64,000 nt of DNA from Halorubrum ruber (GTDB lineage: Archaea > Halobacteriota > Halobacteria > Halobacteriales > Haloferacaceae): positions 434,001 through 498,000 of the forward strand of contig NZ_CP073695.1 of the NCBI RefSeq assembly GCF_018228765.1, in the 5' to 3' direction. The notes under the pieces are model-generated. The model was not told where the DNA came from and ran no database searches. It saw only the letters and a program-made list of their open reading frames with translations. Shown here in pieces: positions 10,433 through 52,638 of the stretch (its first letter is position 1; the number at the start of each line of letters is the position of its first letter). The position numbers and the translations under genes were made by a program.

Positions 10433-10456
10433 CAAAACTCCCGGCGACGCCTGTCT

Positions 10457-11469: not shown

Positions 11470-11489
11470 TGTCGGACGCACCCCCCTCC
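11470..11489 (-). repeat. Right arm of the inverted repeat flanking the DUF4268-like gene
   Basis: cggacgcacccccctccccc is the reverse complement of the arm at 10370-10389 over about 18 bases. It lies about 60 bp past the gene's stop codon. Confidence 0.6.
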
Positions 11490-11639
11490 CCCACTATCTA
11501 GTTTGAACTACAGCTCCGATGAGATTCCCTACTGAGACTCGTTTCAGGAGTATACGGTATACACAGCGCAAAATTTGAAAGATACCGCCCTAAGAACTCA
11601 TCTACAAATTATTTCATGACAGCGGCCCCAGCGTGTCAC

Positions 11640-11957
11640 ATGGAGTTTATTCGGTCTGACTCGAAGGACGTTCGAATCCGTGTTCATCTCCGTGCCGGCA
11701 GTATGGATGGTGATGACGTGGTTGCCTACGAGGATGTAGATGAACTCCCCGACGACGCAGCGACTCGAATACCACAGATTCTCGATGATCACCCTCTCGA
11801 ACGGTATCCAGTGGGAGCATATATTGGAACATTATCCCCACCAGGACTCGAATCGAGACAGATCCGCGATCCAGATGAGGTTCTCTCAGAGCCATATCCA
11901 AGAGATATTGAATTAGCTGAGTTTCCACCTGAAGAAGACCAACTGTACAAGTGGTAG
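11640..11957 (+). CDS. Hypothetical acidic protein
   Basis: 105 aa from ATG 11640 (MEFIRSDSKDVRIRVHLRAG). It is acidic and Pro-rich in its second half (IGTLSPPGLESRQIRDPDEV), ending EEDQLYKW. An aattattt box at 11606-11613 is about 27 bp upstream of 11640, which is why I prefer it to the ATG at 11616. No family is recognised. It lies between two defence-type genes and shares their orientation, but with a 190-bp gap on each side. Confidence 0.55.
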   Translation: MEFIRSDSKDVRIRVHLRAGSMDGDDVVAYEDVDELPDDAATRIPQILDDHPLERYPVGAYIGTLSPPGLESRQIRDPDEVLSEPYPRDIELAEFPPEEDQLYKW

Positions 11958-12117
11958 AACGCCGAATTTTATCCATTACGTCCTATCTGTGGAGCCAACT
12001 ATCACACACACTTCTGCTGACAGTGGGTGAGCGTGATAGCGGGTCGCAGCAAACCTGTGGGATGAGTAGCTCAACCTACCTGCGATCAATCTGAGCCACC
12101 CAGAACGTGACAACCAC

Positions 12118-12125
12118 GATTTATA
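12118..12125 (+). promoter_or_regulatory. TATA box for the DUF262/DUF1524 gene
   Basis: gatttata sits about 26-30 bp upstream of ATG 12151 in otherwise mixed sequence, giving a leaderless transcript. Confidence 0.5.
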
Positions 12126-12150
12126 CGGGCCGGCACACCACCCTATCAGC

Positions 12151-14256
12151 ATGGAAACCCGCACGGTCCATCTCGATTCCCTGTTGACGGACGGGTTGTT
12201 CGATATTCCGAGCTACCAGCGCAGCTACTCGTGGACCGAGCCCCAGCTCACGGACCTGTTTGAGGACCTCCTATACCTCCCAGAGGCGAAGTCGCACTTC
12301 TTCGGGAACATCATCCTCCGCAAGCAGGACACCCAGTTCGAGACGGACCGCCGCCGTCGGTTTGACAAGTACGACGTCGTGGACGGCCAACAGCGGCTAA
12401 CATCGGCGATTATCTTTCTCTACGTCGCGTCGAAGTTCGACGACACGATCGCGGCGACACTCGACGAGGATAACCTCCTCTTCCCCGTCAAGGAGCGACC
12501 GCGATTACTTCCACAGGATCAGGACTCCGAGTACTTCCGTGACGGACTCCTCGGCTCCGCATCCATCGACCCGGAAACGCCGTCGCAGACGCGGCTCAAG
12601 GCTGCCGCGGACTTCTTCACAGAACAGTTTGAGGAGCTCGATGATCCTGAAGCCGTAGCCGATCTCGCAGAGACGCTCCGGTACGACTGCCGGATCAACG
12701 TTGTCGAGATCGATGACGGCTCCGAGGCAGCCTCGATCTTCGAGAGTCTCAACGATCGCGGCCGACCACTGTCGACACTCGACAAAACGAAGAGCTTCCT
12801 GATGTATATGGACGACCGCTCCAGCAATCAGGGCGCTCTCGAAACCAAGATCAAACAACGCTTCGGGAGTATCTACCGGGACCTGTTCGTTTTCAACACC
12901 GGTCATAATCGGGTGAATGACTTCGATGAAGACAGCTTCCTTCGGTTCCACTGGGGCATCTATGACGGCTATAACTCTGATGAGTATTTCAACGGGTTCG
13001 AGACGCTGAAAGATCGACTCCGTGAGCGGTTCCGCGCCGGCGAACTCGACGCCGTCCAGTCGGAAATTGACGCGTACGTCCAAGACCTCCGTGAGGCCGC
13101 GACGGCGTTCTCAGCGATACTCCAGCCGGATGTCCCGGATTCCGTTGAACTCTCCCTTACACGACTCCTAGAGCTCGGACGATTGGCGAACGTTCTCCCC
13201 GTCCTGATGGCGTCGTATCTGAACTTTGCCGACGATGATCCCGAGGGCTTCGCTGCCGTCGTCGACGCATGTGAAACGCTCGTGTTCCGGATGTACGCAA
13301 TTGACTCACGGCGATCGGACACGGGCCGGGGACGACTCGTTCGACTCGCTCACGACGTTCACACGACACCGTCGATCGATCCCGAGACAGTCGTCGAACG
13401 ACTCGACTCGATCACACAGCGATACACGGACGACGACCGGTTCGAGCGCCAACTCCGCGATCCGGACTTCTACCAGAGCACGTCGAGTCGAGACACGAAG
13501 TACCTGCTCTATCACTACGGGCAACAGGTCGAATCCGAGGCCGGCGAGGAGGTCCTGACAAGTCCCGGGCATATTCTATCGACCGAGTTCCAAGTCGAGC
13601 ACATCCTTGCTCGGAAGCTCCCCGCCGATGCGATCCCCGAGAGCCTCGTCGACGAGTTCGATGAGCACGTCCACCGTCTCGGGAACCTCACGCTCGCCAG
13701 CCGGTACTGGAACAGTTCGTACGGTAATCTGCCGTTCGCCGAAAAGAAACACGCGAGCGGCGGACGCGAGAAGGAGTACGCCTCCTCGTCCTTGCGCGTC
13801 CAGCGGGAACTCGCCGCGTTCGACACGTTCGGGAAGTCGGCCATCGATGAGCGGACCGACACGCTCGTCGAATTCGCGCTCGATCACTGGTCTATCGATC
13901 CCGCGTCCCCCGAGCCGGATTCAACGGATGTCCCCGCTGAGTTCACCGGGTGGTTCCCGTCCGACTTCTTCGACCGCCTCACCAGCAAACAGGAGGCGAT
14001 GTTTCGGGTTCTGTACGCCGCCGAGGAGCCCTTGCTCACCGACGACCTGATTGAACGGATGGAAGACGAGTACGGTGAGACGGTTGGTGGCAGTAGCGGT
14101 CTTTCAGGCATTCTCGCGGGACTGACGTCGAAACACTCCAAGGAGTTCCGCCACTCGATCATGTCCACGTCGTGGGTAGGAGATCAGTTCGAATGGGTTC
14201 TCACGCTCGATTCTGCTCAACGGGAGCAGTTCGAAGCAGAAATGGATCTGAAGTGA
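12151..14256 (+). CDS. GmrSD-like type IV restriction protein (DUF262 plus HNH DUF1524)
   Basis: 701 aa. The N-terminal DUF262 domain shows FDIPSYQRSYSWTEPQL and YDVVDGQQRLTSAIIFLYVA, with the DGQQR nucleotide-binding motif. The central part is helical (about 200-440). The HNH-like DUF1524 nuclease follows near residue 480 (FQVEHILARKLP with the catalytic His, then VHRLGNLTLASRYWNSSYGN). An extra C-terminal domain of about 120 residues (FFDRLTSKQEAMFRVLYAAE...) resembles a winged helix. GmrSD-type enzymes cleave modified phage DNA with NTP dependence; a similar role here is likely. Length and domain order match single-chain GmrSD proteins. Confidence 0.85.
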   Translation: METRTVHLDSLLTDGLFDIPSYQRSYSWTEPQLTDLFEDLLYLPEAKSHFFGNIILRKQDTQFETDRRRRFDKYDVVDGQQRLTSAIIFLYVASKFDDTIAATLDEDNLLFPVKERPRLLPQDQDSEYFRDGLLGSASIDPETPSQTRLKAAADFFTEQFEELDDPEAVADLAETLRYDCRINVVEIDDGSEAASIFESLNDRGRPLSTLDKTKSFLMYMDDRSSNQGALETKIKQRFGSIYRDLFVFNTGHNRVNDFDEDSFLRFHWGIYDGYNSDEYFNGFETLKDRLRERFRAGELDAVQSEIDAYVQDLREAATAFSAILQPDVPDSVELSLTRLLELGRLANVLPVLMASYLNFADDDPEGFAAVVDACETLVFRMYAIDSRRSDTGRGRLVRLAHDVHTTPSIDPETVVERLDSITQRYTDDDRFERQLRDPDFYQSTSSRDTKYLLYHYGQQVESEAGEEVLTSPGHILSTEFQVEHILARKLPADAIPESLVDEFDEHVHRLGNLTLASRYWNSSYGNLPFAEKKHASGGREKEYASSSLRVQRELAAFDTFGKSAIDERTDTLVEFALDHWSIDPASPEPDSTDVPAEFTGWFPSDFFDRLTSKQEAMFRVLYAAEEPLLTDDLIERMEDEYGETVGGSSGLSGILAGLTSKHSKEFRHSIMSTSWVGDQFEWVLTLDSAQREQFEAEMDLK

Positions 14257-14314
14257 TCTCGCCTCCCGTTTGAGGAATGTCGGAAACATACTACAGTAGA
14301 CTCATAGAGTCGGA

Positions 14315-15348
<1,034 letters not shown>

Positions 15349-15587
15349 AACCTCGTGGAAAGGGGTTCTCGACGCGACCCCGTGGGGTCCGACGTAGATG
15401 TATTCACGATCCGCGATCTATGTACTTCGCTCAGCGCGCTCGCCACGTGAGGTACATAGAAATCGGTTGGGTTGCGGGTGGCGGCCGCGGTGATCGTGGT
15501 CGATCCGTGGGTACTACTTCAGCACGGATCAGTTCAGTCACTCCAGAACGACGGGATCGTGACCCCCGTACATACGATGTGGTATAA

Positions 15588-15845
15588 ATGAGCCGTCGAA
15601 CCAGCCTCAAACTCACCGATGAACGCGAACGGCAGCTCGAAAAGGCGAGCGAAATTGTGGCGAGCGGTCCCGACGACGACCCGCCCATGAGCGTGGTGAT
15701 CGACGCCGCGCTCGCGCATCTGATACAATCGGAGGCTAATATCCACAAGGCTCGTGACGAACTCGATCCGGGCACAATTCAGCAGTTCAACACGGACGTT
15801 ATCGGGTTGCGGTACAGGATAAGAATAGAAAGCCGCTGGCGGTAG
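15588..15845 (+). CDS. Ribbon-helix-helix-type small protein
   Basis: 85 aa starting MSRRTSLKLTDERERQLEKA. A basic beta-strand followed by two helices (ERERQLEKASEIV and PMSVVIDAALAHLIQSE) is the classic ribbon-helix-helix (CopG/Arc) layout. The tail YRIRIESRWR is typical of a haloarchaeal plasmid/provirus RHH family. It probably binds DNA as a dimer and regulates element genes. It follows the 69-aa gene after about 240 bp in which I see nothing but an imperfect palindrome around 15411-15460 (gtacattcga and related steps). Confidence 0.7.
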   Translation: MSRRTSLKLTDERERQLEKASEIVASGPDDDPPMSVVIDAALAHLIQSEANIHKARDELDPGTIQQFNTDVIGLRYRIRIESRWR

Positions 15846-15884
15846 ATTTACGCCAGATAATTGAAAGAGTGTACAGCTAAAGAA

Positions 15885-16334
15885 TTAGCTTGAGCTTTTA
15901 ACCGTGGCCGTATCCTCGTAGATTGCGTTACCGCTCGGGTCGTGAATAAGTCTAATTGTGATAGAATCATCGGCAGATGCGGTCCCAACGCCCTCTACAA
16001 CTGCTGTGGTTCCGCTTTGCCACGTGTCTGTGAGAGTGGAATTGCTCGCAACTGTACCGCTCCTATCACCATCAACAACGATTGTAACTTCTCTCGGGTC
16101 GATGTCCTGACCACCGGTCTTAGTAATCTCCACATCTACACCAGTACCATTGTCAGTTACATCATCTATACTGAAACTCGCCTGTGGCGCGGTGTCTCCT
16201 AACTGATCGCCGAGTCCGAGGACGAACGTCCCGATGACGGCGGCCAGAATGACGGTAATCGCGACCATGAGTATGACCCCGATAACGGGGCTGACAGCAC
16301 GGTCTTCTCCTTTGGACGGGTTGCTTGGTTTCAT
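15885..16334 (-). CDS. Type IV pilin-like protein
   Basis: 149 aa from ATG 16334. The N-terminus has the haloarchaeal prepilin signature: GEDRAVSPVIGVILMVAITV, with a short charged leader cut by prepilin peptidase before the hydrophobic helix (about residues 14-38). The rest is a Thr/Asp-rich extracellular beta domain (DVEITKTGGQDIDPREVTIV). It belongs to the archaeal Pilin_N (formerly DUF1628) family and should assemble into an adhesion or DNA-related pilus. A TATA-like motif on the minus strand at about 16427-16436 lies some 90 bp upstream, so its transcript has a leader. It is carried by the island, so it may alter surface or virus interactions of the host. Confidence 0.85.
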   Translation of the reverse strand: MKPSNPSKGEDRAVSPVIGVILMVAITVILAAVIGTFVLGLGDQLGDTAPQASFSIDDVTDNGTGVDVEITKTGGQDIDPREVTIVVDGDRSGTVASNSTLTDTWQSGTTAVVEGVGTASADDSITIRLIHDPSGNAIYEDTATVKSSS

Positions 16335-16508
16335 GATTGAACCCAGCTGGGGCCGAGGACTCGTTCCCGAGACTGATGTCGGACCAAGTCCTTCGGATTG
16401 CTGGCTACTCGGAAAGACGCTGATCTGGTATATGTACTTAATGGCGTGGGTATCACGGGTGAAAATTTGAGGCATGAGTTCAAATCCTGTTGTCACAAAA
16501 TCACGTGT

Positions 16509-17285
16509 ATGGTCCCCACGGCAGTCTCTCTCGCTCGCACATATAGCGATCGTGAGTATCCGGATCCTTGGGAGAAGGTACTCGACTATCGGCGGGTTCG
16601 AGAGTATGCGGCCGAACATCCTAACCACGGCCGAATCCGAGTCGGGAAGGCTCTCGATCTTCCGTCGGGTCGCGTTCGAGGATGGCTCGACGGAGGGATG
16701 CCGGACTCCGTCCGTGGGATTCAAACTGCGATTGATCACGGCTGGCTCGACCCGGACCCCGAGAGTGAGACGGCCGCCGCGCTCGTCGAGCTGCTCGCAC
16801 ACGTCCTCGCGGGCGGGAGCATCGCGACCGAGAGCTACGGCCCTGCGGTGACGCCCGGGAAACGAGTGAGCCCCACGGAGGTCCGGAACGCCTTCGAGTG
16901 CGTCGGCGTGGAGACGCGCACCCGCAACGCAGACACTCCGAACCGGGCGACCGAGATTGTCCCCACGTGTGCCGGGACTGTTCTCGGTCGGTGCCTCGTT
17001 GCGATGGGCGCGCCGACCGGCGCGAAAACGTCGCTCGATCACCTCCCTGCGGTTGTGTGGGATGTCCCTCGATCGGTCCGGCGGTCGTTCGCGCGGATAT
17101 ACGTTCGACACCGCGGACTGAACTACGCCGACAAATCGACGACTCGCGTTCAGGTCGAACGACCGAGTTCGTTCATCGAAGAACTGCGCGAGGTACTCGA
17201 CGACGTGATCGACGAGCGTGTTACGACGGCCGACGCCGGGCTCACCATCTCTGCGGCCGCCGCCCGCGAACTCGGTGTCGAGTAG
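16509..17285 (+). CDS. Island-encoded hypothetical protein with HTH-like N-terminus
   Basis: 258 aa from ATG 16509 (MVPTAVSLARTYSDREYPDP). The segment DYRRVREYAAEHPNHGRIRV followed by LPSGRVRGWLDGGMPDSVRG looks like a homeodomain/HTH that binds DNA, with a conserved-looking WLDGGMPD loop. The rest (AALVELLAHVLAGGSIATES... and SFARIYVRHRGLNYADK) recalls the two-subdomain layout of LAGLIDADG-like proteins but lacks a clear LAGLIDADG motif. It is typical of proviral or integrative-element cargo. It ends 18 bp before a convergent remnant of a repressor. Confidence 0.55.
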   Translation: MVPTAVSLARTYSDREYPDPWEKVLDYRRVREYAAEHPNHGRIRVGKALDLPSGRVRGWLDGGMPDSVRGIQTAIDHGWLDPDPESETAAALVELLAHVLAGGSIATESYGPAVTPGKRVSPTEVRNAFECVGVETRTRNADTPNRATEIVPTCAGTVLGRCLVAMGAPTGAKTSLDHLPAVVWDVPRSVRRSFARIYVRHRGLNYADKSTTRVQVERPSSFIEELREVLDDVIDERVTTADAGLTISAAAARELGVE

Positions 17286-17303
17286 CGCCGTCGGTTCAGT
17301 TCA

Positions 17304-17527
17304 CTACTCTTCGAGGTCGTCCGCGTCGAGGTCGCCAGGGAGGTAGGCCCGCCCGCGTTCGGTGATCCGGTTGTACCCTCGCTTCTCGGAGGTCTTCTCG
17401 ACGAGTCCATGCTCGTCGAGGATCGGGAGCCGTCGATTCACCGTCGGGTGAGAGACGCCGTCGACGTTGTGAGAAATCACCGCTGGGGGAAAGTCGTGTA
17501 AGTTCGCGACGTTCCGCCACGTGAGCG
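17304..17527 (-). pseudogene. C-terminal remnant of a phiH-repressor-like winged-helix gene
   Basis: The last 70-odd residues are a good winged helix ending: FPPAVISHNVDGVSHPTVNR then LPILDEHGLVEKTSEKRGYN and ERGRAYLPGDLDADDLEE, which is the usual tail of phiH1-repressor-like regulators. The expected N-terminal helix does not exist; upstream of about 17527 the reading frame enters the antisense of an integrase fragment. So the gene was cut at this junction. Confidence 0.65.
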
Positions 17528-17751
17528 GGTGTCCGTCCGCTCGGTCGCCCCACGACGCCCGCAAGGCGCGGGTGACCAAGTATCGGAACGACGGCGTCCC
17601 TCGGGGCGTCGTTTCGGACCAGCTCAACGCGAGCGAGGACGTTCTCGACAAGCACTACGACCGCGCTTCGGAGCGCGAGAAGGCAGACCGCCGCTGGCGG
17701 ATTATACAACAACGAGTGTCACACAAATTCAAGCTGATTACAGCGGGATAA
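17521..17751 (+). pseudogene. C-terminal fragment of a tyrosine recombinase (integrase)
   Basis: 76 codons carrying SPHDARKARVTKYRND (the HxxR box), GVPRGVVSDQLNASEDVLDK and HYDRASEREKADRRWRI, with the catalytic Tyr in KHYDRAS. The N-terminal core-binding domain and the first catalytic Arg are missing; the sequence starts abruptly where the repressor remnant ends. Its stop lies 18 bp before att-like core 2, the position expected for an integrase next to its attachment site. Confidence 0.75.
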
Positions 17752-17769
17752 TTACGGGACCCAAATCCA

Positions 17770-17788
17770 GTCGCGCCGTATCGTTCTA
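17770..17788. repeat. att-like 19-bp core, copy 2
   Basis: GTCGCGCCGTATCGTTCTA, identical to copy 1 and preceded by cccaaatcca, a near match to the tRNA-Arg T-arm end (ttcaaatccc). From here to about 17866 the sequence is almost identical to 5752-5848. It marks the junction between the first accreted element (defence genes) and the second (HEPN/MNT). Confidence 0.8.
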
Positions 17789-17836
17789 CCCGACCGATAG
17801 CAACAGCGTAGAACTGTGAAACCGTAACAGCGCCGG

Positions 17837-17929
17837 CTACTCGTCTTCGAGGGCGTCGTAGACGTCCCAGTGAGCATCGCGATCATCCGCTGCGACCCGC
17901 CGAACCAGTTCCCGCCGGATGTCCTCCAT
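17837..17929 (-). CDS. Short conserved acidic ORF, copy 2 (shortened, in frame with the HEPN gene)
   Basis: 30 codons from ATG 17929: MEDIRRELVRRVAADDRDAH then WDVYDALEDE. It matches the C-terminal two thirds of the 46-aa copies. The HEPN gene upstream ends RGDD-TAG and is followed at once by GTG-ATG in the same frame; where the 46-aa copies read LDDVMED, this one has DD-stop-VMED. So the two coding sequences were joined here, separated by one TAG codon. Confidence 0.5.
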   Translation of the reverse strand: MEDIRRELVRRVAADDRDAHWDVYDALEDE

Positions 17930-17932
17930 CAC

Positions 17933-18463
17933 CTAGTCGTCACCTCTCGGCTGTCGGGCGTCGCAGACACAGACGCCGCCTTCCCGTATCTGGTCCGTGA
18001 CGTGCTGGTGAACGCTGCGAGAAAGCGCATACAGACTATCCGCTTGCTTCTCGGTGGGCCGCTTGCCGCCGTAGTAGCTGTCTGTCCTGTTGTCGTCGTA
18101 CAGTCCCCGAAGCTCCCGTGTCGCCGTCCGGGAGAGCAGGCCGAGGTCGGCAGCTCGGTCGTAACAGTGCGTGTGGTCGTGGAAGTCGTCCAGTTCATCA
18201 CCACCGACTGCGAGGGCATAAGCCTCGATAGACCGCTCGGTTGCCCCGAAGCAAAGTTCGATGACGGCGGTGTAGTGCCCTTGCCCGTCGATTCGTGCGA
18301 CTGCGTCTAGCAGCCGACACGCCTTCGTGAGCTGTGTCTTCCAATCGTCGCCGGTCGCGATCGCATCCTCGCGGTTCGGGACGCCGAACCCCTCCTCGTT
18401 GAACGCGTCGATAGCCGCATCGAGAGCCGTCCGGATATCCCGCGGATCGGACCCTTCACTCAT
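17933..18463 (-). CDS. HEPN-domain protein (probable toxin RNase of a HEPN/MNT pair)
   Basis: 176 aa from ATG 18463 (MSEGSDPRDIRTALDAAIDA). It is all-helical, with the HEPN signature near the middle of the second half: RELRGLYDDNRTDSYYGG, that is R-x(4-6)-N/H, plus KQADSLYALSRSVHQHV. HEPN proteins paired with MNT nucleotidyltransferases form type VII-like toxin-antitoxin systems in which HEPN cleaves RNA and MNT neutralises it. The start overlaps the end of the MNT gene by eight bases, so the pair is translated from one message. Part of its 3' end is duplicated as a relic at 21378-21514. Confidence 0.8.
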   Translation of the reverse strand: MSEGSDPRDIRTALDAAIDAFNEEGFGVPNREDAIATGDDWKTQLTKACRLLDAVARIDGQGHYTAVIELCFGATERSIEAYALAVGGDELDDFHDHTHCYDRAADLGLLSRTATRELRGLYDDNRTDSYYGGKRPTEKQADSLYALSRSVHQHVTDQIREGGVCVCDARQPRGDD

Positions 18464-19148
18464 CGAGATCACCGTGGAAAACCATATTTCGGACCGTCTG
18501 GAACTTCTCCGTCCCGTGGATCACGATCCCGTCGCTGAGCACCTCCCGTATCTCGGCGATGTACTTCGGGACCGCCTGAAGCGCCTCGATGTCGATCTCG
18601 TATTCGTACCGGCCGTTCTCGAACTCCTCGTCTTCGAGCCCTTGTTTGACCTGATTCGCCGCTCGCTGGTTCGCCATCCGATCTTCCTCGACGAGCACCC
18701 AGAGATCGATGTCGCTCCGCCGGTCCGCTTCGCCTCGCGCGACACTGCCGTACAGAACGACCCCGATCACGCCGTCGAGTTCGCCGCGGAGTTCGGTTGC
18801 TGCTGCTCTCACCGGCTCTTGGAACTCGGCCTGCGGAATCTGTAAATGGGGATCGTCCGGAACGTGGAGCCGCTCGCGGTTGATTCGAACCCATCGCGTG
18901 TTGCCCTCGCGTCGTTCGACGACGAGATCGTTTTCGGAGAGTACGGTTACCGCCTTGGAGACGCTCGGCTGCGAATAGTCCACTGCCTCGACGAGGTCAC
19001 TAATCGAGAACTCCTCAGTGTGGTGGCGGGATAAAAAGGAGAGAACCGTGTCTGTGGCCGTACTACCGAATAAATTCCCGCTTTGGGTCGGTATGTCGAG
19101 AAGTATCTGTAGCCTGTCTTCGGCCACAATATTCGAGCTGCTTTTCAT
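18456..19148 (-). CDS. Winged-helix-MNT nucleotidyltransferase (probable antitoxin)
   Basis: 230 aa. An N-terminal winged helix (FSISDLVEAVDYSQPSVSKA, then DLVVERREGNTRWVRINRER) is followed by a minimal nucleotidyltransferase: VVLYGSVARGEADRRSDIDL, with GS and DxD in the right spacing and ALQAVPKYIAEI beyond. Such proteins AMPylate or otherwise modify and block the HEPN partner. The winged helix would also let it repress the pair. A TATA box (19173-19180) stands 25-27 bp before the start. It is directly upstream of, and overlapping, the HEPN gene. Confidence 0.82.
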   Translation of the reverse strand: MKSSSNIVAEDRLQILLDIPTQSGNLFGSTATDTVLSFLSRHHTEEFSISDLVEAVDYSQPSVSKAVTVLSENDLVVERREGNTRWVRINRERLHVPDDPHLQIPQAEFQEPVRAAATELRGELDGVIGVVLYGSVARGEADRRSDIDLWVLVEEDRMANQRAANQVKQGLEDEEFENGRYEYEIDIEALQAVPKYIAEIREVLSDGIVIHGTEKFQTVRNMVFHGDLDE

Positions 19149-19172
19149 AGCAAACGATCTATTTCTCTTTCT

Positions 19173-19180
19173 ATTTAAAG
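19173..19180 (-). promoter_or_regulatory. TATA box for the MNT-HEPN operon
   Basis: atttaaag on the + strand (CTTTAAAT on the minus), 25-32 bp before ATG 19148, fits leaderless transcription. The 107 bp between 19149 and 19255 are otherwise AT-rich with no gene. Confidence 0.5.
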
Positions 19181-19255
19181 TTTATATAAGAAATGCGGAT
19201 TGGTTTATATTAGATAGTTTTGTGGAGTGGTGAGCGACGGCGGCCGGGAGTGACT

Positions 19256-20265
19256 CTATATGTCGTCGAGGTATCCCCTCCGTTGTTCCATCTTCTCTTT
19301 CTGCGAGCGCTGGTCGTAGTGCTGGTCGATGACATCGGACGTTACGTTCGCCCGGTCGCTGACCACCGTCTCGGGTACGTCACTCTGTAAGTAGTGCGTG
19401 ATGGCGCCGCGACGGAACGGATGCGGGCTCACGCTTGACGGACACTGTGCCGAGTGGTCTTTGTTGGTGGCTTCACACTCGCTTTCATCACGGTCATGAG
19501 GGCAGGGTTGTCCGTACCACAGGGACGGGTGATCTGGTAGCAGTACGTCCGGACCGTGGTTGTTGCTACTCGTCCTTGATTCGTCGCTAAGAGCGGCTCT
19601 CGTCCGTGGTCATCCGTAACGTCAGGTCGGTTTTCACGGATCCAGTCGTCGAGAACGAGACAGACCTCGTTCGACACCGCGATAATGCGCTCTCCCTGTT
19701 GCTTGTTCTTAAGCGGTGTCCCGGTCTCAGGGCGATGTCGAAGCGTGAGCGACCGCTTTTCGGGGTCGTAGTCTCTGATGTCGAGTGCGCGCACGGACCC
19801 CATCCGAAGCATCGTGTGCCACAGTAGCGTCGCGGTCACGTGTCGGATCGACGCGTACTCGTACCGCTCGAGATGCTGGAGCATCGCCTCCGCGTCGTCA
19901 GCCTCGAGCATCACGTCGCGGCTATTCTCACCCGGATTGAGATCCGGCGACCGGACCTTCTTATGAAGTTCTTGTTCCACGCCGTCGATGGATTCCAGCC
20001 ACTTGACGAAGACGCGGACCGTATCCATGATCGTCTTTACCGTCGCCTTTGTCAGGTCGCCGGTGTTGCGTCGCCAGAGTCGGAACTCCTGTATCTTCCG
20101 GCCAGTCAGCTCGTTCAGATTCTCGATGTCGCGCTTCCCACACCACTCGATAAAGAACTTCAACCGCGACCTGTGGGAGACGAGCGTCGCGTCCGAAACC
20201 GAGGTCTCTTTTTCTGCGAGGTACAGCTCGAATGCCGTTTCGGGGTCGATTGGTTCGATTTCCAT
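19256..20265 (-). pseudogene. Tyrosine recombinase (integrase), broken by one frameshift
   Basis: From ATG 20265 (MEIEPIDPETAFELYLAEKE) the core-binding domain (LVSHRSRLKFFIEWCGKRDI) and the first catalytic region (TLLWHTMLRMGSVRALDI, with Arg) are intact. Near 19530 the frame shifts: TRPCGTDNP is read where a different frame gives WYGQPCPHDRDESECE. The second frame continues with HPFRRGAITHYLQSD (HxxR) and VIDQHYDQRSQKEKME (catalytic Tyr) to a TAG at 19256. The total of 1010 bases is one short of a multiple of three, so a single base deletion explains it. Uncorrected, the protein lacks HxxR and Tyr and cannot recombine DNA. It belongs to the second accreted element. Confidence 0.82.
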
Positions 20266-20354
20266 GGTTCGATCGGTCTCGAACCACACGAAGGCGCGGC
20301 CTTCGACACCCGTTCGGCGAATCACCAACTTTTCCGCAGTGCCGTCTTACTCCT

Positions 20355-20373
20355 GTCGCGCCGTATCGCTCTA
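20355..20373. repeat. att-like 19-bp core, copy 3
   Basis: GTCGCGCCGTATCGCTCTA, one base different from copies 1 and 2. It lies 89 bp upstream of the start of the integrase pseudogene and about 50 bp from the end of the third short ORF, marking the start of the third module. Confidence 0.75.
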
Positions 20374-20421
20374 GTTGAGGGATAACGACCGATCAAACCC
20401 GAAAAATCGCAACAATGCCGG

Positions 20422-20562
20422 CTACTCGTCTTCGAGCGCGTCGTAGATGTCTCGGTTCGAATCGCGGTCGTCCGCCGCAACCCGCCGAATCAGTTCCCGC
20501 CGGATGTCCTCCATCACGTCGTCAAGCGGAGAGACCGGTTCTGTACCTTCTTCGGTGGCCAT
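20422..20562 (-). CDS. Short conserved acidic protein, copy 3 (46 aa)
   Basis: MATEEGTEPVSPLDDVMEDI then RRELIRRVAADDRDSNRDIY and DALEDE. Same length as copy 1 and about 80 percent identical, with differences spread along it and silent changes between the two DNA copies, which suggests selection on the protein. It starts 25 nt after the stop of the Fic/Doc gene, and the intervening leader resembles that of copy 1. It may be the antitoxin or an accessory of the Doc-like protein, although Phd-type antitoxins normally precede doc. Confidence 0.6.
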   Translation of the reverse strand: MATEEGTEPVSPLDDVMEDIRRELIRRVAADDRDSNRDIYDALEDE

Positions 20563-20587
20563 GTCTGAACGGACGCTTCGAACGCCG

Positions 20588-21076
20588 TTAATCGTTCGGG
20601 TTTGAGGAATCGCCGGTCAACTGATCAAGCCCGTACGTGACGAGTTCGTCTCGCCAGTCGTCGATCTCACCGGCCAGATCCATCTCTTTGGTGTGGGATC
20701 GGAGATACTCGGTGGTGTCTCCTTCATCGACCGCTGCCTCGTCGGTTCCGAACTCTTTCAGAATCGCCCTCACTTCGTTGTCGTACTCGAACCGATTCCC
20801 GTTGAGGAAGTAGAAGACGACCGTCACGTTGAGTGCAGTTCGTTTGTTCGCATCGACGAAGGGGTGATTGGCGACGAGGAGACGGAAGAGGTGATACGCC
20901 TTCTCGTGGATGGTGTCTGGTGCGGAACCGAAACTCCCCTCTTCGATGTAGTCTAATGCGAACTCGATGTCACCACGGTTCCGAACACCGGCGGGAGTGT
21001 CGGGGTACTCCGCGACGACATCGTCGTGGATGGTGACGATGTCTTCGACGGACGGGTACCATAACGAGTCGGCCAT
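20588..21076 (-). CDS. doc: Fic/Doc-family toxin
   Basis: 162 aa from ATG 21076 (MADSLWYPSVEDIVTIHDDV; an upstream ATG at 21157 is less likely because a GATACAGTATC box lies just before 21076). The Fic core is ANHPFVDANKRTALNVTVVF, matching HxFx(D/N)xNKR, preceded by the helix KAYHLFRLLV. Short Doc-type proteins with this core phosphorylate or AMPylate targets such as EF-Tu and act as toxins. No Phd-like gene precedes it; the short acidic ORF follows instead. Confidence 0.82.
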   Translation of the reverse strand: MADSLWYPSVEDIVTIHDDVVAEYPDTPAGVRNRGDIEFALDYIEEGSFGSAPDTIHEKAYHLFRLLVANHPFVDANKRTALNVTVVFYFLNGNRFEYDNEVRAILKEFGTDEAAVDEGDTTEYLRSHTKEMDLAGEIDDWRDELVTYGLDQLTGDSSNPND

Positions 21077-21136
21077 TCGCTCCAATCTCGATACTGTATC
21101 AGTGTAGATGTTGCTATGATGAGGCGGGTGAGTGAT

Positions 21137-21227
21137 GTCAGAAACCACCGTTTTCACGACGGCGATTTCGACCGTCTCACACCTGAAAGGTCGATCCGTT
21201 CGACAGTCGAAGTAGCGCCCGTCGCGC
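21137..21227. repeat. 91-bp dispersed repeat, copy B
   Basis: Pairs ungapped with 6829-6919. It overlaps the 5' side of the Doc gene's upstream region and runs directly into att-like core 4. Confidence 0.65.
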
Positions 21228-21239
21228 CGTATCGCTCTA
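21221..21239. repeat. att-like 19-bp core, copy 4
   Basis: GTCGCGCCGTATCGCTCTA, identical to copy 3. It is followed about 45 bp later by a decayed copy of the short ORF and a HEPN remnant, so a fourth, mostly deleted element once started here. Confidence 0.75.
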
Positions 21240-21282
21240 CGCGACGCATAGCGACAGGTGGGCTCGTGAAACCGTGCGTCGG

Positions 21283-21374
21283 ATACTCGTCTTCGAGCGC
21301 GTCGTAGACGTCTCGGTTCGCATCGCGCTCGTCCGCCGCGACTCGCCGAACCAGTTCCCGCCGATCTCCACCAT
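21283..21374 (-). pseudogene. Decayed copy 4 of the short acidic ORF
   Basis: Alignment with copy 2 shows loss of one C (atc-ggcggg for atccggcggg) right after the start and loss of the stop codon (tat in place of tag). The DNA between still encodes RRVAADERDANRDVYDALED in the shifted frame. Confidence 0.7.
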
Positions 21375-21377
21375 CAC

Positions 21378-21514
21378 TTAGTCATCACGTCCCGACTATC
21401 GAGTGTCGCAGACACAGACGCCGCCTTCCCGTATCTGGTCCGTGACGTGCTGGTGAACGCTACGAGAGAGCGCGTACATACTATCCGCTTGCTTCTCGGT
21501 GGGCCGCTTGCCGT
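21378..21514 (-). pseudogene. 3' remnant of a HEPN gene
   Basis: About 137 bp almost identical to 17933-18071 (cagacacagacgccgccttc... through gtgggccgcttgcc). It corresponds to the last 45 codons of the HEPN gene and breaks off at about 21514, where unrelated sequence begins. No MNT partner is left. Confidence 0.75.
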
Positions 21515-21518
21515 TGCG

Positions 21519-21603
21519 GGAGTCACCCATCGCTGCCAAGCTGAACGGCTACGCCGCCGGACACGACGTCGCGGTGGTCGAGGAGCTCCCGGCGTCCGGC
21601 TGA
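21519..21603 (+). pseudogene. C-terminal stub of an unidentified gene at the island's right edge
   Basis: The sequence becomes GC-rich and reads AAKLNGYAAGHDVAVVEELP-ASG-stop in one frame with haloarchaeal codon use. It has no start and joins directly to the HEPN remnant, so it is probably the surviving end of a backbone gene cut when island DNA arrived or rearranged. Confidence 0.4.
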
Positions 21604-21684
21604 TGCCGTCGGCCGTCGGTTCTCACGGCGCGGCCGATGTCCACAGATGCCACAGGCTTTCCGTGTGGCGCGTCTCGTACTCGT

Positions 21685-22155
21685 ATGTCGATAACTACTG
21701 GCGACTCCGTGACGCTCGAGTACACCGGCCGACTCGACGACGGCACCGTCTTCGACACATCTCAGCAATCGGTCGCCGAGGAGGCGGGCCTCGCCGAGGC
21801 CCAGCCCGACCGCGAGTACACGCCGCTAACGGTCGACGTGGGGGCCGGACAGGTCATCGAGGGGATGGAGGAGGGACTCATCGGATTGGAAGCCGGCGAG
21901 ACGGACACGCTGACGATTCCGCCGGAGGAGGCCTACGGACAGCCCAGCGACGAGAACGTCGAGGAGTTCGAGACCGACGAACTTCGGGAGCTGCTCGGCG
22001 GCCAACTGCCCGAGGAGGGCGCGTACCTCGAGGCCCAAGACGGCAGCCAAGGCGAAGTCGTCCACGTCGACGACGACACCGTTCGGGCGGACTTCAACCC
22101 GCCGCTCGCCGGGGAGACGCTGACGTTCGACGTCGAAATTCTCGAAACCAACTGA
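21685..22155 (+). CDS. FKBP-type peptidyl-prolyl isomerase (SlyD-like)
   Basis: 156 aa from ATG 21685 (MSITTGDSVTLEYTGRLDDG). The FKBP half-domains VTLEYTGRLDDGTVFDTS and GAGQVIEGMEEGLIGLEAGE bracket the usual fold. After IPPEEAYGQ comes an inserted flap (ETDELRELLGG...QLPEEGAYLEA), as in SlyD, and the fold closes with ADFNPPLAGETLTFDVEI. It catalyses prolyl cis-trans isomerisation and chaperones proteins in the cytoplasm. It is the first complete backbone gene after the island. Confidence 0.9.
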   Translation: MSITTGDSVTLEYTGRLDDGTVFDTSQQSVAEEAGLAEAQPDREYTPLTVDVGAGQVIEGMEEGLIGLEAGETDTLTIPPEEAYGQPSDENVEEFETDELRELLGGQLPEEGAYLEAQDGSQGEVVHVDDDTVRADFNPPLAGETLTFDVEILETN

Positions 22156-43466: not shown

Positions 43467-46400
43467 CTACGTCGTTCGGAGGTGGCCCTGCTTGGGTTCG
43501 TACACCTCGCCCTTCGTCCGGAGCTTCTCGATCTCCTGTTCCGCCTTCCCCGGGTCCATCCCGATCTCGCCCGCGCGGTCGAGCACCTCGTCGACCGGCG
43601 CGCCCTCCTCGTACTCCTCCTCGATGTCGGCGATGAGCCCCTTGATGTTCTTGATGCGGTCGCGCTGGCTCTTCGAGGTGCCCGTTTCGACCACGTCCGC
43701 GTCGAACTGCCCCGTCTCGGGGTCGACGCCGATGTCTTTGAGACACGACTCGACGATGTCGGTCGCGCGGTCGGCGTCCTCGCGCTCGACGGTATCCGAC
43801 AGGCGGACCCGCGCGCTCGCCTCCGAGAGCCGCACCATCGCCTCCAGCTTCCGGGCGGTGACCGGTACCGGCGCGTCCTCGTCCGCGCCCTTCGAGCGCA
43901 GGTCGACGTAGAACTCCTCGATGAGCTCCTTCGCCTCGTCGGTCATCGTCGGGAAGCAGGACCGCTTCGCGTGGGCGATGTACTTCCGCAGCAGCTCCGA
44001 GTCGATCTCCGGCGCGACCTCCTCGGTCACCTCCGCAACCTGCTCGGACGTGAACTCCGAGCTCGCCAGCTCCTCGCGCTGGGTGTTGAGCTCGCCGGCG
44101 TAGTTCGTCTTGATGATGTGTTTCGCCAGCCGGGAGTCGTGTTCCGGGTCGGGACTGTCCGTCACCGTGAAGATCAGGTCGAACCGCGAGATGAGGGCGG
44201 GCTCTAAGTCGATCTGCTCGCCGATCGGCTCGTACTGGTCGAACCGGCCGTACTTCGGGTTCGCCGCGCCGAGCAGCGAACAGCGCGCCTTGAGGGTGGC
44301 GTTGATCCCGGCCTTCGAGACCGAGATCTTCTGTTGTTCGAGCCCCTCGTGCATCGCGGAGCGGTCAGAGGAGTTGTGGACGACGAGCCCGTTCGCGACG
44401 AAGTTGTGCGTCCCCTCTACGGTCAGGTCGTACACCCGCGGTCGCTCCCCGTCGTCGATCCGCGTCAGTATCGACCGCAGATCCTCTCTGACGGCGGTCA
44501 CCTCGCTCGCGACCGCCTCACGCACGTCGCCGAGCCGGTCGGTCTCGACAGCGCCCGACAGCCACCGAGATACGGTCGCCTGACTCACGTCGAGCCTCGA
44601 CGCCACATCCGCCTGACTAACCCCGTAGGCGTCGAGCGCCGCCGACAGCTCCGATCGCGTTTCGCCGACCGGACCGCGGTCGAGCAGTTCGCGAGCGCGC
44701 GTTTCCGCCGTGTCGACCGGCCCACCGATGACGTCTGCGAGATGCTGTCGGAGCACCTCGCCGCGGTGTTCGGTCGACTCCGGGGGGACCGTTTCGACCG
44801 ACTCGACCTGACGCCACTTCACGTCGCCGCGGACGAACTCGCGAAGGTCGTCGAAGTCGGTCTCCGCGACTCCGGTGAGGATCTCTCGCAGCCGCTCGGT
44901 CACCGTCCGACGGACCTCCTCGCTCTCGCCCCACTCGCGGGAGATCTGCTGTTGGGACAGCGTCGTCCCGTCCGCGAGTTCGGACTGCGAGACGTGGTAC
45001 CGCTCCCGCAGCTCCGAGAACATCTCCCACGTCGGTTTCTCGTCGAGTCGGCGCCGGTCCTCGGTGGCCGCCTCTCGCCGTTCCTCGAACGCCACGAGTA
45101 CCTGGCGGGCGCGGTGGAGCGAGACGTTCGCACCGCCGCTCTCGAAGTCGTGGTACGTGACCGCTTCGAGTCCGCACTCACGCTGATGGAGCCGGAGCGA
45201 GTCGCGACACCGCGCGAGCACGTCGCCGACCTCTGGGACTACGTCGAGGATCGTGCGACCGCCGCCTGCCGAATCGACGACGCGGTCGAGCGCCGCCGCC
45301 TTCCGCGTGGCCGTGAATCCGACGTACCGCCGGAACGCCGCGAGCGAGTCGGCGTCGGTCACCGTGAGGTAGTACACGTCGCGGCCCTCGTTCCGCTCGC
45401 GCCGCTGGAGCTGACTCGACACGCCGAACCCTAAGAGGAGGTTCCGCGTGCCTCGGAGCAGGTCTCGGCTCGCAGATGCTATCCGAACGTTGCCGGCCGA
45501 CTCGTCGACGTGCCCCTCGCTGTCCGCGAGCGCGCGGATGAACGCGGCCTTCGCCGCGCGGCTCCCGGTCGAAACGGGGGTCGGGAAGCACTTCTCGTCG
45601 TACCCACCGAGGTTCATTCCCGCGTCGAGGACGGCGTCGGCGTGTTCCTTCCCCGTGACGCGGACCGTCTCGACGCCGTCGTCGCGCTTCTCGCTCGGCG
45701 GACGGGTCGGCTCCGCGTCGAACGCCGCCCGCGCCGCGCGCTCGAAGTCGTCCAAGAGCTCGTCGTCTGCGTTGGTGAACCGGACGCCGTAGACGCCCTC
45801 GTCGCGGTCGTAGTAGACGTTCCCGTCGCCGGAGAGGTATCCGAGGACGCTCGCCATCGCGGGGTCGACGCCGTCAGTGTCGATTCTCTCGCTGTCGACC
45901 GGTTCGGTTACCGGTCGGTCTCCGCCGTTCGCCGCCACCGCTCCGCCGTCCGCCGCCTTCGTCGGGATCTCGCGGGGGACGTACACCCAGTCGCCGTCGT
46001 CGAGCGCGGCCGCCTCGCGCTCGACGCGCTCGCCGTCGTCGAGGACGAAGAACGGGTGGTCGGCGGTCGCGGTCAGCGACTCGCCGGTCTCCATCGTCAC
46101 CCGGGTCAACTCCGACGGCGCGTCGTACTCGTGGACCGCGGAGACGGGGCGCTCGACGAGGTTGCCGTCCCCGTCCATCGACCAGACGTCGAGGTCGACG
46201 TCGCGGACGCGGCGACCGTTCGAGAGCTCCTCGATGTCGCCGTCTTCGGCCGCTTCCCGCGCCAGTTCGTCGATGCGCTCGACGCGCCCGTCGGCGAGCG
46301 AGACCAGCGTGTCGCCCGTGACGCAGTCCATCTTGTCCAGCTCGTCGACCGCGGCGATCCCCTTGTCCGCGAGCACGAGCGCGCCGGCTTCGAGCGACCA

Positions 46401-49106
46401 CTGCTGGCCGTCGCCGAAATCGTCGCGGACGGCCGCCGCCGTGAGGCCCGCCGCGGACGACCCCTTCCCGGACGTGTACACCGAGCGAGGTGCGATGTTT
46501 TCGACGTACGAAATCATCTGGGAGTTATGAGAGACGACGCTGTTTCCGAGATACGTGTGCGTGTCTCTGACCTCGAGATCGTAGACCCACTCGTAATCCG
46601 GATCGACCGATTCGATCGACTCGATCCGGTCCCAGTGAACGTCGTTCGTACACAGACGATCGAGTTCGGAGATGTCTTGGCTGACGGATAATGCCTCGTC
46701 GAGACGATCCAAAATCACGTCCTTTGCATCCGCGGTCTGTCCACCGTCTGGAGCGACGTCGTTCCGCTCATAGTAGCTGATCGCGGTTTGAGAGACGTCC
46801 ATACCCTCCGAGAGTACCTTCTGAGAGATGTTCAGTTCCTCTCGTAGCGTCTCGACTGCCTGCCAGTCACCGTCCAGCAGCTCTCCGCGCTTCTCCCGAA
46901 GCCAGTCTAAGCGGGTTTCGAACGTGTCGACAACCGCTCTCAGACTCGCTCTACTCGGATTTCTGTCGCCGCGTTCGTAGTGTTGATACGTCGGACGCGG
47001 CAGTCCGATATCGAACTGTGACAACGCGAGCGCCTCGCGGATCTGCCGGAGATCGTCACTTAGTCCCGGAATCACATCCGTGTTTGTGTTCTCTGGAACG
47101 TCGTCGAACGCTTTCGAGGCCGTCGCTTTGCGATCGGTGACGAATCCAATTTCGTCGACGTATTTGACGAAATCCCGTCCACTGATGCGCAGTCGGTGGC
47201 TGTCGTTGTGTCGTTTCCGAAGATGGCTCTGGATCCCGAACGCGAGGAGTAACGTCTGTACTCCGGTCAGCAGTTCTCTACTCATCGAGGAAACCGTGAT
47301 TTCGCGTTCTTTGGGTGAGACTGTCCCCTCGCTGTCAACGTACGCCTGTAGGAATTCCTTCTTGTTCTCCGGACTCGCCCGTTTGAGACAATCGGGGACG
47401 AGTTGATTCTCAGAGTTTTTGAGAATTGCCGGTTCGAGTTCTCTGAGGAACCGGACGAACTCCAACGAGGAACAGCGGACGATTTCGGCAGTCTCATGAT
47501 CCCATTTCTCTAGACGGGACCACCGAACGCCCAACTCGCGGAAGCAGTTCTCCACGTCCGTCAGTATCTCTTCGTCGACGTTCGTAACCTCGGTAGCAGC
47601 ACTCGATCCCGAGAGATAGGTGTGGCCCTCTGCGATGATATAACCGAGGAGTCGAGCCAGAGTGGGATCGACTCGGGTGGGCGGCGTGAACGAATTCGCG
47701 TTGTAGGCTTCGACCTGCTGGAACGAAACATCAAGCGAATCATCCCAATCGGCGTCGATGTTTCCGGGGACCGCAATGAGGTCTCCTTCCGCCAATTGAT
47801 CTGCCCGTCGGGGAGACAATCCTCTGTTCAACTGTTTGAACAACGGGTGCGACGGTGTTACTTCTACTTCGCGCCCCGATGCCATCAAAATTCTGTGCAT
47901 CCTATCCGGCGCTTCTCGTTTCCAGACTTTTGTCGCGGTCCCAGTCTCGACGGCCCCCGATTCGGTTACTGTTTGAACGCCGACATCTACCGGTTCGTAT
48001 ACCCCGTCGTCGACCTCTATCGGGTCTTCGAGGTTTGACTCTACTATATCCCCGAGTGCCCGTTCCGTTCCGTCAGCAAGTGTCACCTCTGTATCATATT
48101 TTTGACACTTACCCGTACCAGGGTCGCCGATCAGGAGCATGTGGAGGTCGCCGCGGATCCGCGACCCGTCGGGGAGGTGTTTGGTGACGCCGGAGAACAG
48201 CTGGAGGATCATCGCGAGCTTCTCCTCCTCGTAGCCGTAGATGGCGGGCGCGATGGAGCCGACCATCGCCTCGTAGATGTCGTCGCGCTCGGAGAGCTCG
48301 ATGATGTCGCGTTTGTCCGCCTCCGTGATGTCCATGTCCTCGAACTCCTCGTCCTCGATGGCGATGGAGACGCCGTCCATGTAGAGGTCGAAGATGGCGG
48401 ACTTCTCGTTGCCCTGCTCGACCTGCTCGATGTGGAGGACGCCGACGCAGGTGACGTGGTCGCCGGGGCTCACCTCGCCGGTGATGTCGTCGACGATGTC
48501 GACGTCGATCGACTGGGGCGTCTCGCCGCCGCGCAGTCCCTCCGGAGACTCCTGGATGCGGAGCTTCTGGGAGTCGACGAACTCGGACTGGTCGAAGTTG
48601 ACGCGGAACGGGCCCTGCCGCTCGCAGCCCTGGCACTCGTGGGGCTCCTGGAAGCCGCCGTCGGACTGCGGGATGTACGTCATCGTGCCGCAGCGCTGGC
48701 ACTCGAAGGCGGCCTCGGTCACCTTGGGGCGGACGTCCGTGGCCTTCCGGACGATGCCCTGGATTGAGACGAGCTTGCCGATGTGGTCGTCGTGGACGCG
48801 GATGCCGCGGATGTCGACGCTCTCGGGGAGGTCCTCGATGCGGACGTGCGCGCGGCCGAGGCTGACGTCGGCGGGGAGGTCGTAGAGTCGCAGCGCCTCC
48901 TCGGCGTACTCGCGCATCTGCTCCGGCTTGTTCAGGAAGTCCTCGGCGAGGTCGCGGTCGAACTGGAAGAGGTCGTCGTAGGAGACGTACAGCGAGCGCT
49001 GCTCGTTGGGGTACCGCTGCGCGAGCTGCCCGATCTCCTCCCGATAGTAGTTGCGATAGAACTGAATGAACCGCTCCGTGAGGTCCTGGGTGCCGGCCTG
49101 AGCCAT
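43467..49106 (-). CDS. mcm: Replicative MCM helicase, interrupted by two inteins
   Basis: 1879 codons, of which about 700 remain after splicing, the normal haloarchaeal MCM length. Before intein 1: the N-terminal OB/zinc region (CQRCG...CQGCERQGPF zinc ribbon, residues 136-161) and the start of the AAA+ core to Walker A (LLIGDPGTGK, 324-333). Between the inteins: SQMISYVENIAPRSVYTSGK through the Walker B VLADKGIAAVDELDKMD (862-927). After intein 2: SSDRSAMHEGLEQQKISVSK, the arginine-finger region (LISRFDLIFTV) and the C-terminal winged helix. It unwinds DNA ahead of the replication fork. Both inteins sit in the ATPase site, so splicing is required for function. Confidence 0.95.
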   Translation of the reverse strand: MAQAGTQDLTERFIQFYRNYYREEIGQLAQRYPNEQRSLYVSYDDLFQFDRDLAEDFLNKPEQMREYAEEALRLYDLPADVSLGRAHVRIEDLPESVDIRGIRVHDDHIGKLVSIQGIVRKATDVRPKVTEAAFECQRCGTMTYIPQSDGGFQEPHECQGCERQGPFRVNFDQSEFVDSQKLRIQESPEGLRGGETPQSIDVDIVDDITGEVSPGDHVTCVGVLHIEQVEQGNEKSAIFDLYMDGVSIAIEDEEFEDMDITEADKRDIIELSERDDIYEAMVGSIAPAIYGYEEEKLAMILQLFSGVTKHLPDGSRIRGDLHMLLIGDPGTGKCQKYDTEVTLADGTERALGDIVESNLEDPIEVDDGVYEPVDVGVQTVTESGAVETGTATKVWKREAPDRMHRILMASGREVEVTPSHPLFKQLNRGLSPRRADQLAEGDLIAVPGNIDADWDDSLDVSFQQVEAYNANSFTPPTRVDPTLARLLGYIIAEGHTYLSGSSAATEVTNVDEEILTDVENCFRELGVRWSRLEKWDHETAEIVRCSSLEFVRFLRELEPAILKNSENQLVPDCLKRASPENKKEFLQAYVDSEGTVSPKEREITVSSMSRELLTGVQTLLLAFGIQSHLRKRHNDSHRLRISGRDFVKYVDEIGFVTDRKATASKAFDDVPENTNTDVIPGLSDDLRQIREALALSQFDIGLPRPTYQHYERGDRNPSRASLRAVVDTFETRLDWLREKRGELLDGDWQAVETLREELNISQKVLSEGMDVSQTAISYYERNDVAPDGGQTADAKDVILDRLDEALSVSQDISELDRLCTNDVHWDRIESIESVDPDYEWVYDLEVRDTHTYLGNSVVSHNSQMISYVENIAPRSVYTSGKGSSAAGLTAAAVRDDFGDGQQWSLEAGALVLADKGIAAVDELDKMDCVTGDTLVSLADGRVERIDELAREAAEDGDIEELSNGRRVRDVDLDVWSMDGDGNLVERPVSAVHEYDAPSELTRVTMETGESLTATADHPFFVLDDGERVEREAAALDDGDWVYVPREIPTKAADGGAVAANGGDRPVTEPVDSERIDTDGVDPAMASVLGYLSGDGNVYYDRDEGVYGVRFTNADDELLDDFERAARAAFDAEPTRPPSEKRDDGVETVRVTGKEHADAVLDAGMNLGGYDEKCFPTPVSTGSRAAKAAFIRALADSEGHVDESAGNVRIASASRDLLRGTRNLLLGFGVSSQLQRRERNEGRDVYYLTVTDADSLAAFRRYVGFTATRKAAALDRVVDSAGGGRTILDVVPEVGDVLARCRDSLRLHQRECGLEAVTYHDFESGGANVSLHRARQVLVAFEERREAATEDRRRLDEKPTWEMFSELRERYHVSQSELADGTTLSQQQISREWGESEEVRRTVTERLREILTGVAETDFDDLREFVRGDVKWRQVESVETVPPESTEHRGEVLRQHLADVIGGPVDTAETRARELLDRGPVGETRSELSAALDAYGVSQADVASRLDVSQATVSRWLSGAVETDRLGDVREAVASEVTAVREDLRSILTRIDDGERPRVYDLTVEGTHNFVANGLVVHNSSDRSAMHEGLEQQKISVSKAGINATLKARCSLLGAANPKYGRFDQYEPIGEQIDLEPALISRFDLIFTVTDSPDPEHDSRLAKHIIKTNYAGELNTQREELASSEFTSEQVAEVTEEVAPEIDSELLRKYIAHAKRSCFPTMTDEAKELIEEFYVDLRSKGADEDAPVPVTARKLEAMVRLSEASARVRLSDTVEREDADRATDIVESCLKDIGVDPETGQFDADVVETGTSKSQRDRIKNIKGLIADIEEEYEEGAPVDEVLDRAGEIGMDPGKAEQEIEKLRTKGEVYEPKQGHLRTT
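44373..46325 (-). mobile_element. Intein 2 of MCM (651 aa) with LAGLIDADG and HTH-like segments
   Basis: Starts at Cys928 (CVTGDTLVSLADGRVERI) and ends VEGTHNFVANGLVVHN at Asn1578, with Ser+1. Splicing blocks A, B (TATADHPFF), F and G are intact. DOD endonuclease motifs: ASVLGYLSGDGNVY and FIRALADSEGHV. Residues about 1364-1412 and 1486-1525 read like Cro/C1 helix-turn-helix units (HVSQSELADGTTLSQQQISR; YGVSQADVASRLDVSQATVS). The latter is inserted between WRQVESVETV and the terminal RVYDLTV strand, making this intein much longer than usual. Confidence 0.9.
46524..48107 (-). mobile_element. Intein 1 of MCM (528 aa) with LAGLIDADG and HTH-like segments
   Basis: Starts at Cys334 (CQKYDTEVTLADGTERAL) immediately after the Walker A Lys and ends RDTHTYLGNSVVSHN at Asn861, with Ser+1. 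Block B is EVTPSHPLF. DOD endonuclease motifs: RLLGYIIAEGHTYL and FLQAYVDSEGTVS. Two Cro/C1-like HTH segments lie after the second motif: IREALALSQFDIGLPRPTYQ...YERG (about 689-712) and LREELNISQKVLSEGMDVSQ...YYERND (about 754-783). Confidence 0.9.
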
Positions 49107-52195: not shown

Positions 52196-52638
52196 CTTAT
52201 AAATAAACGAGGCGGTGGCGCGTGCCTGCGAGCGGCCGCCATCGGCGGCCGCGAGACAGCACCGCGCGAGGGAGTCGGCCGGTCGGAGCGAAGCGGAGAC
52301 CGGCCGACGAGGCTGGGGAGGCGTGAGGTGCTGTGCGGTGCCGTGCGGGGCGGGACTCAAAGGGGCAGCCGCGAGGCGGGCGCAGGCGACGTAAGCACCG
52401 CAGCGAAGGAGCGAGCAGCGCGAGCGACTGAGCGAGGCGCGCAACGAGCGTGCGCCCGCCTCGCGGCTGGGGCTTTGGAGGTGTTCGCCGCCGATCCGTC
52501 AGCGGTCATTTATATCCTCGCAGCTGGGGCTTTGGAGGTGTTCGCCGCCGATCCGCAGTCATCTATTTATAAACGAGCGACTGGGGCTTTGGCGGTGTTC
52601 GCCGCCGATCTGACAGCGACCATTTATAAATAAACGAC
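52196..52638. repeat. Highly structured repeat block (hairpins, 19-bp inverted repeat, 57-bp tandem repeats)
   Basis: This fills most of the 643-bp gene-free stretch between the helicase and the NucS-like gene. It is bounded at both ends by the same ttataaataaacga motif (52196, 52624). Inside are a 9-bp stem with a 3-nt loop (52232-52252), an 11-bp perfect stem (52274-52284 with 52298-52308) and a perfect 19-bp inverted repeat (52366-52384 with 52451-52469, 66-nt loop). Then come three 57-bp direct repeats (52467, 52524, 52581), each with ctggggctttgg and gttcgccgccgatc. It could be a structured RNA or a miniature mobile element. Confidence 0.75.
52467..52637 (+). repeat. Three 57-bp tandem repeats
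   Basis: Units start at 52467, 52524 and 52581, so the spacing is exactly 57 both times. The first 31 bases of each unit are nearly invariant (ctggggctttgg with A or C, then ggtgttcgccgccgat); the rest drifts but keeps an atttata near its end. Because 57 is a multiple of three, a 19-aa unit (AGALEVFAADP...IYK) reads through in one frame, but no start or function is apparent. Confidence 0.75.

Follow-up and report, generated by a model that had tools for sequence, protein, structure and literature searches.

We found that a folded non-coding block in Halorubrum ruber belonged to an order-wide family of dispersed haloarchaeal repeats, mainly chromosomal and intergenic, whose plus strand was constrained to fold, whose hairpins were exchanged between copies and whose loci turned over between species. 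The block was located in the window, a stretch of 64,000 nucleotides (NZ_CP073695.1, positions 434,001 to 498,000), and a preliminary description had proposed it to be an undescribed structured RNA or a miniature element with recurrent end units. As a description this agreed with the copies and the compensatory changes that we observed, whereas the interpretation of the identical ends as termini and the notion of end units were unsupported.

The anatomy reported earlier for the block was accurate, including its coordinates (Table 1). The perfect stems of 9, 11 and 19 bp were all present, the three units were spaced 57/57 and were 83-88% identical to each other, and the right arm of the 19-bp stem continued into the first unit as had been claimed. 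Behind the conserved core the array extended to about 52633, and the sequence found at both ends had no third occurrence in the window. The 445-nt block was predicted to fold with z = -5.8 (equally stable shuffles 0/100) and the 269-nt core alone with z = -5.5. According to R1, a covariance model based on 46 copies, the window contained one full copy of the family. Elsewhere in the window, an ORF of 1879 aa on the minus strand (43467-49106) encoded an MCM helicase and read like it contained two inteins, each with helix-turn-helix-like stretches, and the region of about 6001-22000 had a G+C of 0.52-0.63 against about 0.70, possibly representing an integrated element or provirus.

Table 1. Positions of the parts of the repeat in the window
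Feature	Position	Strand	Remarks
TATA-like box TTATAAATAAACGA	52197-52210	+	flank upstream of core; variable in the family, at variable distance, present in most copies
Conserved folded core	52212-52478	+	R1 match 52214-52478, 241 bits, E 3e-51
Hairpin H1, 9-bp stem (52232-52240/52244-52252), within outer stem GCGCGTGC/GCACCGCGC	52232-52252	+	
Hairpin H2, 11-bp stem (52274-52284/52298-52308)	52274-52308	+	variability highest of all modules; exchanged most often
G-tract 1, TGGGGAGG	52314-52321	+	in 150/150 own copies
G-tract 2, GGGGCGGGACT	52347-52357	+	GGGNGGG in 146/150 own copies
5' side of closing clamp, CAAAG, with G-tract 3	52358-52366	+	AAAGGGGC-type in 148/150 own copies
19-bp stem, left arm	52366-52384	+	
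Ladder of 2-bp steps with tandem G.A 2x2 loops between (helices 7-10)	52388-52449	+	
19-bp stem, right arm	52451-52469	+	
Tandem unit 1, 57 bp	52463-52519	+	its CTGGGGCTTTG doubles as 3' side of clamp and G-tract 4
Tandem unit 2, 57 bp	52520-52576	+	
Tandem unit 3, 57 bp	52577-52633	+	TTTATAA box at its end
TTATAAATAAACGA at array end	52624-52637	+	

The search for further copies that had been suggested for the block returned at least 150 full-length matches to R1 in the 3.02-Mb genome. All candidates scored were matched, and since the weakest still had an E value of 1e-27, the true copy number was probably above 150. Blast of the same genome gave 40 scored places, mostly matches of 300-450 bp at 79-86% identity, and a 26-nt unit pattern (up to 3 mismatches) occurred 207 times versus 0 for the reversed control. 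Searching across Halorubrum, as had also been suggested, revealed the family in 53/53 genomes of the genus, with a density of about one copy per 20 kb. In a sample of the order Halobacteriales it was present in 75/117 genomes and 33/48 genera. All genomes with a match in a phylum-wide sample belonged to this order, and there was no match outside it among the matches listed; a pattern scan over wider genome contigs gave mainly chance matches in bacteria. Among the genomes sampled, the family was found only in these salt-loving archaea. The relative G049 also had at least 150 matches, and all those listed were on its 2.84-Mb main replicon. Six plasmid records had one match each, and this rarity on secondary replicons weighed against an ordinary mobile element. 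A phage origin was rejected because the phage records had no match at all.

In alignment A1, the plus-strand structure comprised 255 positions with 62 predicted pairs. Compensatory changes, the absence of which in related strains would have spoken against the preliminary description, were double changes at 31 of these pairs. Paired cells amounted to 98.4%, compared with 88.8% in shuffles, a difference that does not translate into a probability since the sequences were related, and with 29-45% when the partners were slid, a control that preserved the relatedness; double-change cells numbered 249 versus 63. With two G.U-rich pairs left out, there were 64 G.U cells and 7 A.C cells, indicating that the folding strand was the plus strand. 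From 5' to 3', the element consisted of the outer stem with H1, the hypervariable H2, the island TGGGGAGG, GGGYGGGACTCAAAGGGGCAG, a long stem capped by the ladder of 2-bp steps and tandem G.A loops, and the closing CTGGGGCTTTG. The four G-tracts were near-invariant, each being present in 145-150 of the 150 own copies. A simple search of 18 copies taken from other genera showed the same constancy for tracts 2 and 3 and a lower one for tracts 1 and 4. The cytosol is rich in potassium, and all four tracts may combine there into a G-quadruplex-like clamp. Archaeal ncRNA has been reported to be enriched in G-quadruplex motifs (PMC7565180). At one position of the arm, two copies of the H. ruber genome (G000:C1:1624296-1624597 and 2370920-2371231) contained double-hairpin inserts that were nearly identical (TGGTTCGAGACGCCGGAGGCGTCTCGTCATCCCGAAAATC...), and copy 2213321 had two other hairpins inserted elsewhere.

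The unit spacing of the array was exactly 57 bp in 173/188 cases, with 0-8 units per locus. Units within a locus were often near identical and decayed distally, which is the pattern expected from tandem duplication. Unit 1 doubled as the arm's 3' strand in the fold, and the further units repeated that strand. The units were tandem duplicates including this strand rather than the recurrent end units of a miniature element. The distant family f17 also had arrays of 54-57 bp, which followed an element that retained the GAAAGGGGC/GGGGCTTTC clamp and had another body. At its loci L381-L384 (genomes G120, G148 and G090), the GGGACTGAAAGGGGC/GGGGGCTTTC clamp and the 54-57-bp units were kept with a different inner body, and short tandem repeats of about 26-30 bp (CGGTGACACATC...) were located upstream.

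The 5' edge of the element was sharp at GCGGTGGCGCG. The TTTATAA-like box upstream was separated by 14-24 nt from the beginning of the 5' stem and was missing in 32/145 copies. As its distance varied, a promoter at a fixed distance was not supported as a component of the element. Both the position of the edge and the behaviour of the box disagreed with the proposal that the identical ends were the element termini. Left and right flanks of the same locus resembled each other hardly more than shuffled pairs did (p 0.04-0.17), and a target-site duplication was rejected on this comparison. The identical ends are TATA-like boxes found family-wide, with no target duplication. Terminal inverted repeats were absent when the 5' edge GCGGTGGCGCG was compared with the array end, where only palindromic TTTATAAA paired, and weakly. 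The sites compared between relatives revealed no insertion with clean ends. Of two apparently empty sites, one had a deletion remnant and the other was a replaced region, so that we infer the exact ends of an insertion.

All 150 copies examined were intergenic, none of them overlapping any gene predicted by a codon-usage caller that had been trained on the window. Convergent gaps contained 47 copies, divergent gaps 16 and tandem gaps 84, so divergent promoter gaps were avoided. There was no preferred orientation in the tandem gaps (38 with and 46 against the gene direction). The element started at a median of 59 nt past the upstream stop codon, and median distances to start codons were 111-145 nt. 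The distances between copies looked random, not even. Among neighbouring pairs less than 3 kb apart, 9/13 were tail to tail in G000, and neighbouring copies in other genera were mostly head to head. Taken together, the absence of orientation, the absence of a fixed promoter distance and the cramped head-to-head copies weighed against simple transcription units. A role as a riboswitch or 3'-UTR was rejected since orientation and context were unsuitable.

At the locus of the window, between the Hel308 and zinc-ribbon genes, R1 detected the element in 14/30 Halorubrum genomes (two partial, at the locus end); in several other Halorubrum genomes the genes were about 55-110 bp apart. About half of 20 copies in G049 had both flanks in common with a copy of the H. 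ruber genome, and half of the loci differed between these species that were about 92% identical. At the intergenic site L386, which was occupied by the element in G049, this genome had only an apparent 5' remnant (CCGTGGCGCGAG), which pointed to loss by deletion. Among 16 orthologous pairs, whose flanks were for the most part 87-97% identical, H2 differed in 15 (it was >90% identical in only one) and still folded in all 16. For 8 of the 16 pairs, the H2 of G049 was identical letter for letter to that of another copy in the H. ruber genome, and in two orthologous pairs the 3' arm was 98-99% identical. It was implausible that 33-nt hairpins had converged. Across 120 parsed copies, H1 was shared in 0.7% of cases given a shared H2, compared with a background of 0.4%. 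The modules are therefore nearly unlinked, and hairpins reassort almost freely between copies with pairing nearly always kept. Near-unlinked modules together with exact H2 matches are the product expected from repeated conversion tracts that are one hairpin long.

None of the 4227 covariance models of Rfam represented the family, with only chance-level matches far below the gathering score, and no description of it was found in the open-access literature, although an earlier description elsewhere is possible. REPs are short palindromic units of 14-40 nt that are mobilised in trans by a REP-associated tyrosine transposase, and BIMEs are combinations of REPs with a head-to-head arrangement. Similar to these, the family had many dispersed intergenic chromosomal copies, a folded single strand and head-to-head combinations. 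In contrast to the short REP unit, it extended over about 255 positions with several helices, and it also differed by the 57-bp tandem array, the order-wide conservation of its islands and the exchange of modules. The nearest described kinds were REPs, known from both bacteria and archaea (PMC12306157), and the PATEs and SMRs of Haloquadratum walsbyi (PMC3119063). The latter two are likewise high-copy non-coding haloarchaeal repeats with palindromes and without target duplication; PATEs have near-terminal palindromes in common with IS605-type transposons, and SMRs have terminal inverted repeats, unlike our family. MITEs are defined by terminal inverted repeats and target-site duplication, and the family had neither. 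It resembled the large structured ncRNAs of Rfam in having a large conserved fold with covariation support (slid controls being far lower) and a function unknown at discovery, and differed from them by its reassorting hairpins and at least 150 copies per genome. As in CRISPR arrays, the tandem spacing was regular and the unit number variable; however, the units were contiguous and alike, without unique spacers, and the intergenic copies occurred chromosome-wide. It was also reported that a GC-rich intergenic stretch of Halorubrum blocked sequencing (PMC6011602), and any tie of this stretch to the element is a possibility only.

We favoured the interpretation that the family is a REP/BIME-like dispersed repeat that is shuffled by ectopic gene conversion and whose single strand, in its folded form, is recognised and under selection; we gave this a probability of about 0.5, and the agent favouring the fold and the mode of spread are what we infer. 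It would be a very large repeat of this type. Its copies would persist and from time to time spread, probably via a protein supplied in trans that would recognise the folded single strand (either RNA or ssDNA at a fork), and deletion would remove some of them. Gene conversion between copies, for which the invariant islands GAGGGAGTC, GAGGCTGGGGAGG, GGGACTCAAAGGGGCAG and CTGGGGCTTTGG may provide the anchors, would exchange hairpins as wholes and thereby alter their two arms at once. The array could be the product of a tandem duplication in which the 3' strand of the arm was copied along with the TTTATAA box, which would provide spare copies of G-tract 4. On the other hand, neither a target duplication nor a clean insertion was found, a mobile element would not usually be rare on plasmids, a fold of 255 positions is far larger than REP sequences, and a transcript could just as well be the target of the constraint. 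An alternative would be a host-beneficial ncRNA family, with every copy forming its own small transcription unit and the arm with its G-tract clamp giving an RNA that binds a conserved protein or ligand, the high copy number providing dose and the tandem units titrating or regulating it. Strong covariation on one strand with G.U pairs, near-invariant unpaired G-tracts, a TATA-like box upstream of most copies and conservation in 33/48 sampled genera were all consistent with such an RNA. Nevertheless, we considered it less likely, since with the box 14-24 nt from the 5' stem the usual haloarchaeal TSS would exclude the stem from the transcript, 32/145 copies had no box, head-to-head copies of other genera left little room for promoters, and half of the loci differed between species about 92% identical.

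A role as a chromosomal DNA element was less probable still. Its chromosome bias with roughly one copy per 20 kb and its intergenic position without orientation relative to genes would suit a site for a nucleoid, replication or segregation protein, structured as a cruciform or ssDNA hairpin, but the strand-specific tolerance of G.U (G.T) pointed to a folded single strand, the spacing looked random rather than even, and the pairing was conserved while the hairpin sequences were not. It was highly improbable that the units encode a 19-residue repeat peptide in a frame open across the array. Although the spacing is a multiple of 3 (57 = 3 x 19) and an ORF of 101 aa was present at 52328-52633, that frame ran across covarying helices, some units elsewhere contained stop codons, some spacings were 56 bp, and the codon-usage caller called no gene there. 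The variable unit columns had no third-position bias in this frame, and a coding repeat was rejected on codon phase.

We tentatively propose that the family may represent a new class of archaeal nucleic-acid element, namely a high-copy chromosomal scaffold (the tandem-G.A arm and the four-G-tract clamp) carrying dozens of distinct hairpins as a recombining repertoire shared among at least 150 loci and shuffled by ectopic gene conversion with the fold kept. If this is true, the family would be an unannotated component of haloarchaeal chromosomes across the order, and long intergenic regions would contain a folded family that gene annotation has missed. Cells with molar potassium would have yielded a new fold of RNA or ssDNA, and the family would serve as a countable natural assay of ectopic gene conversion in polyploid archaea.
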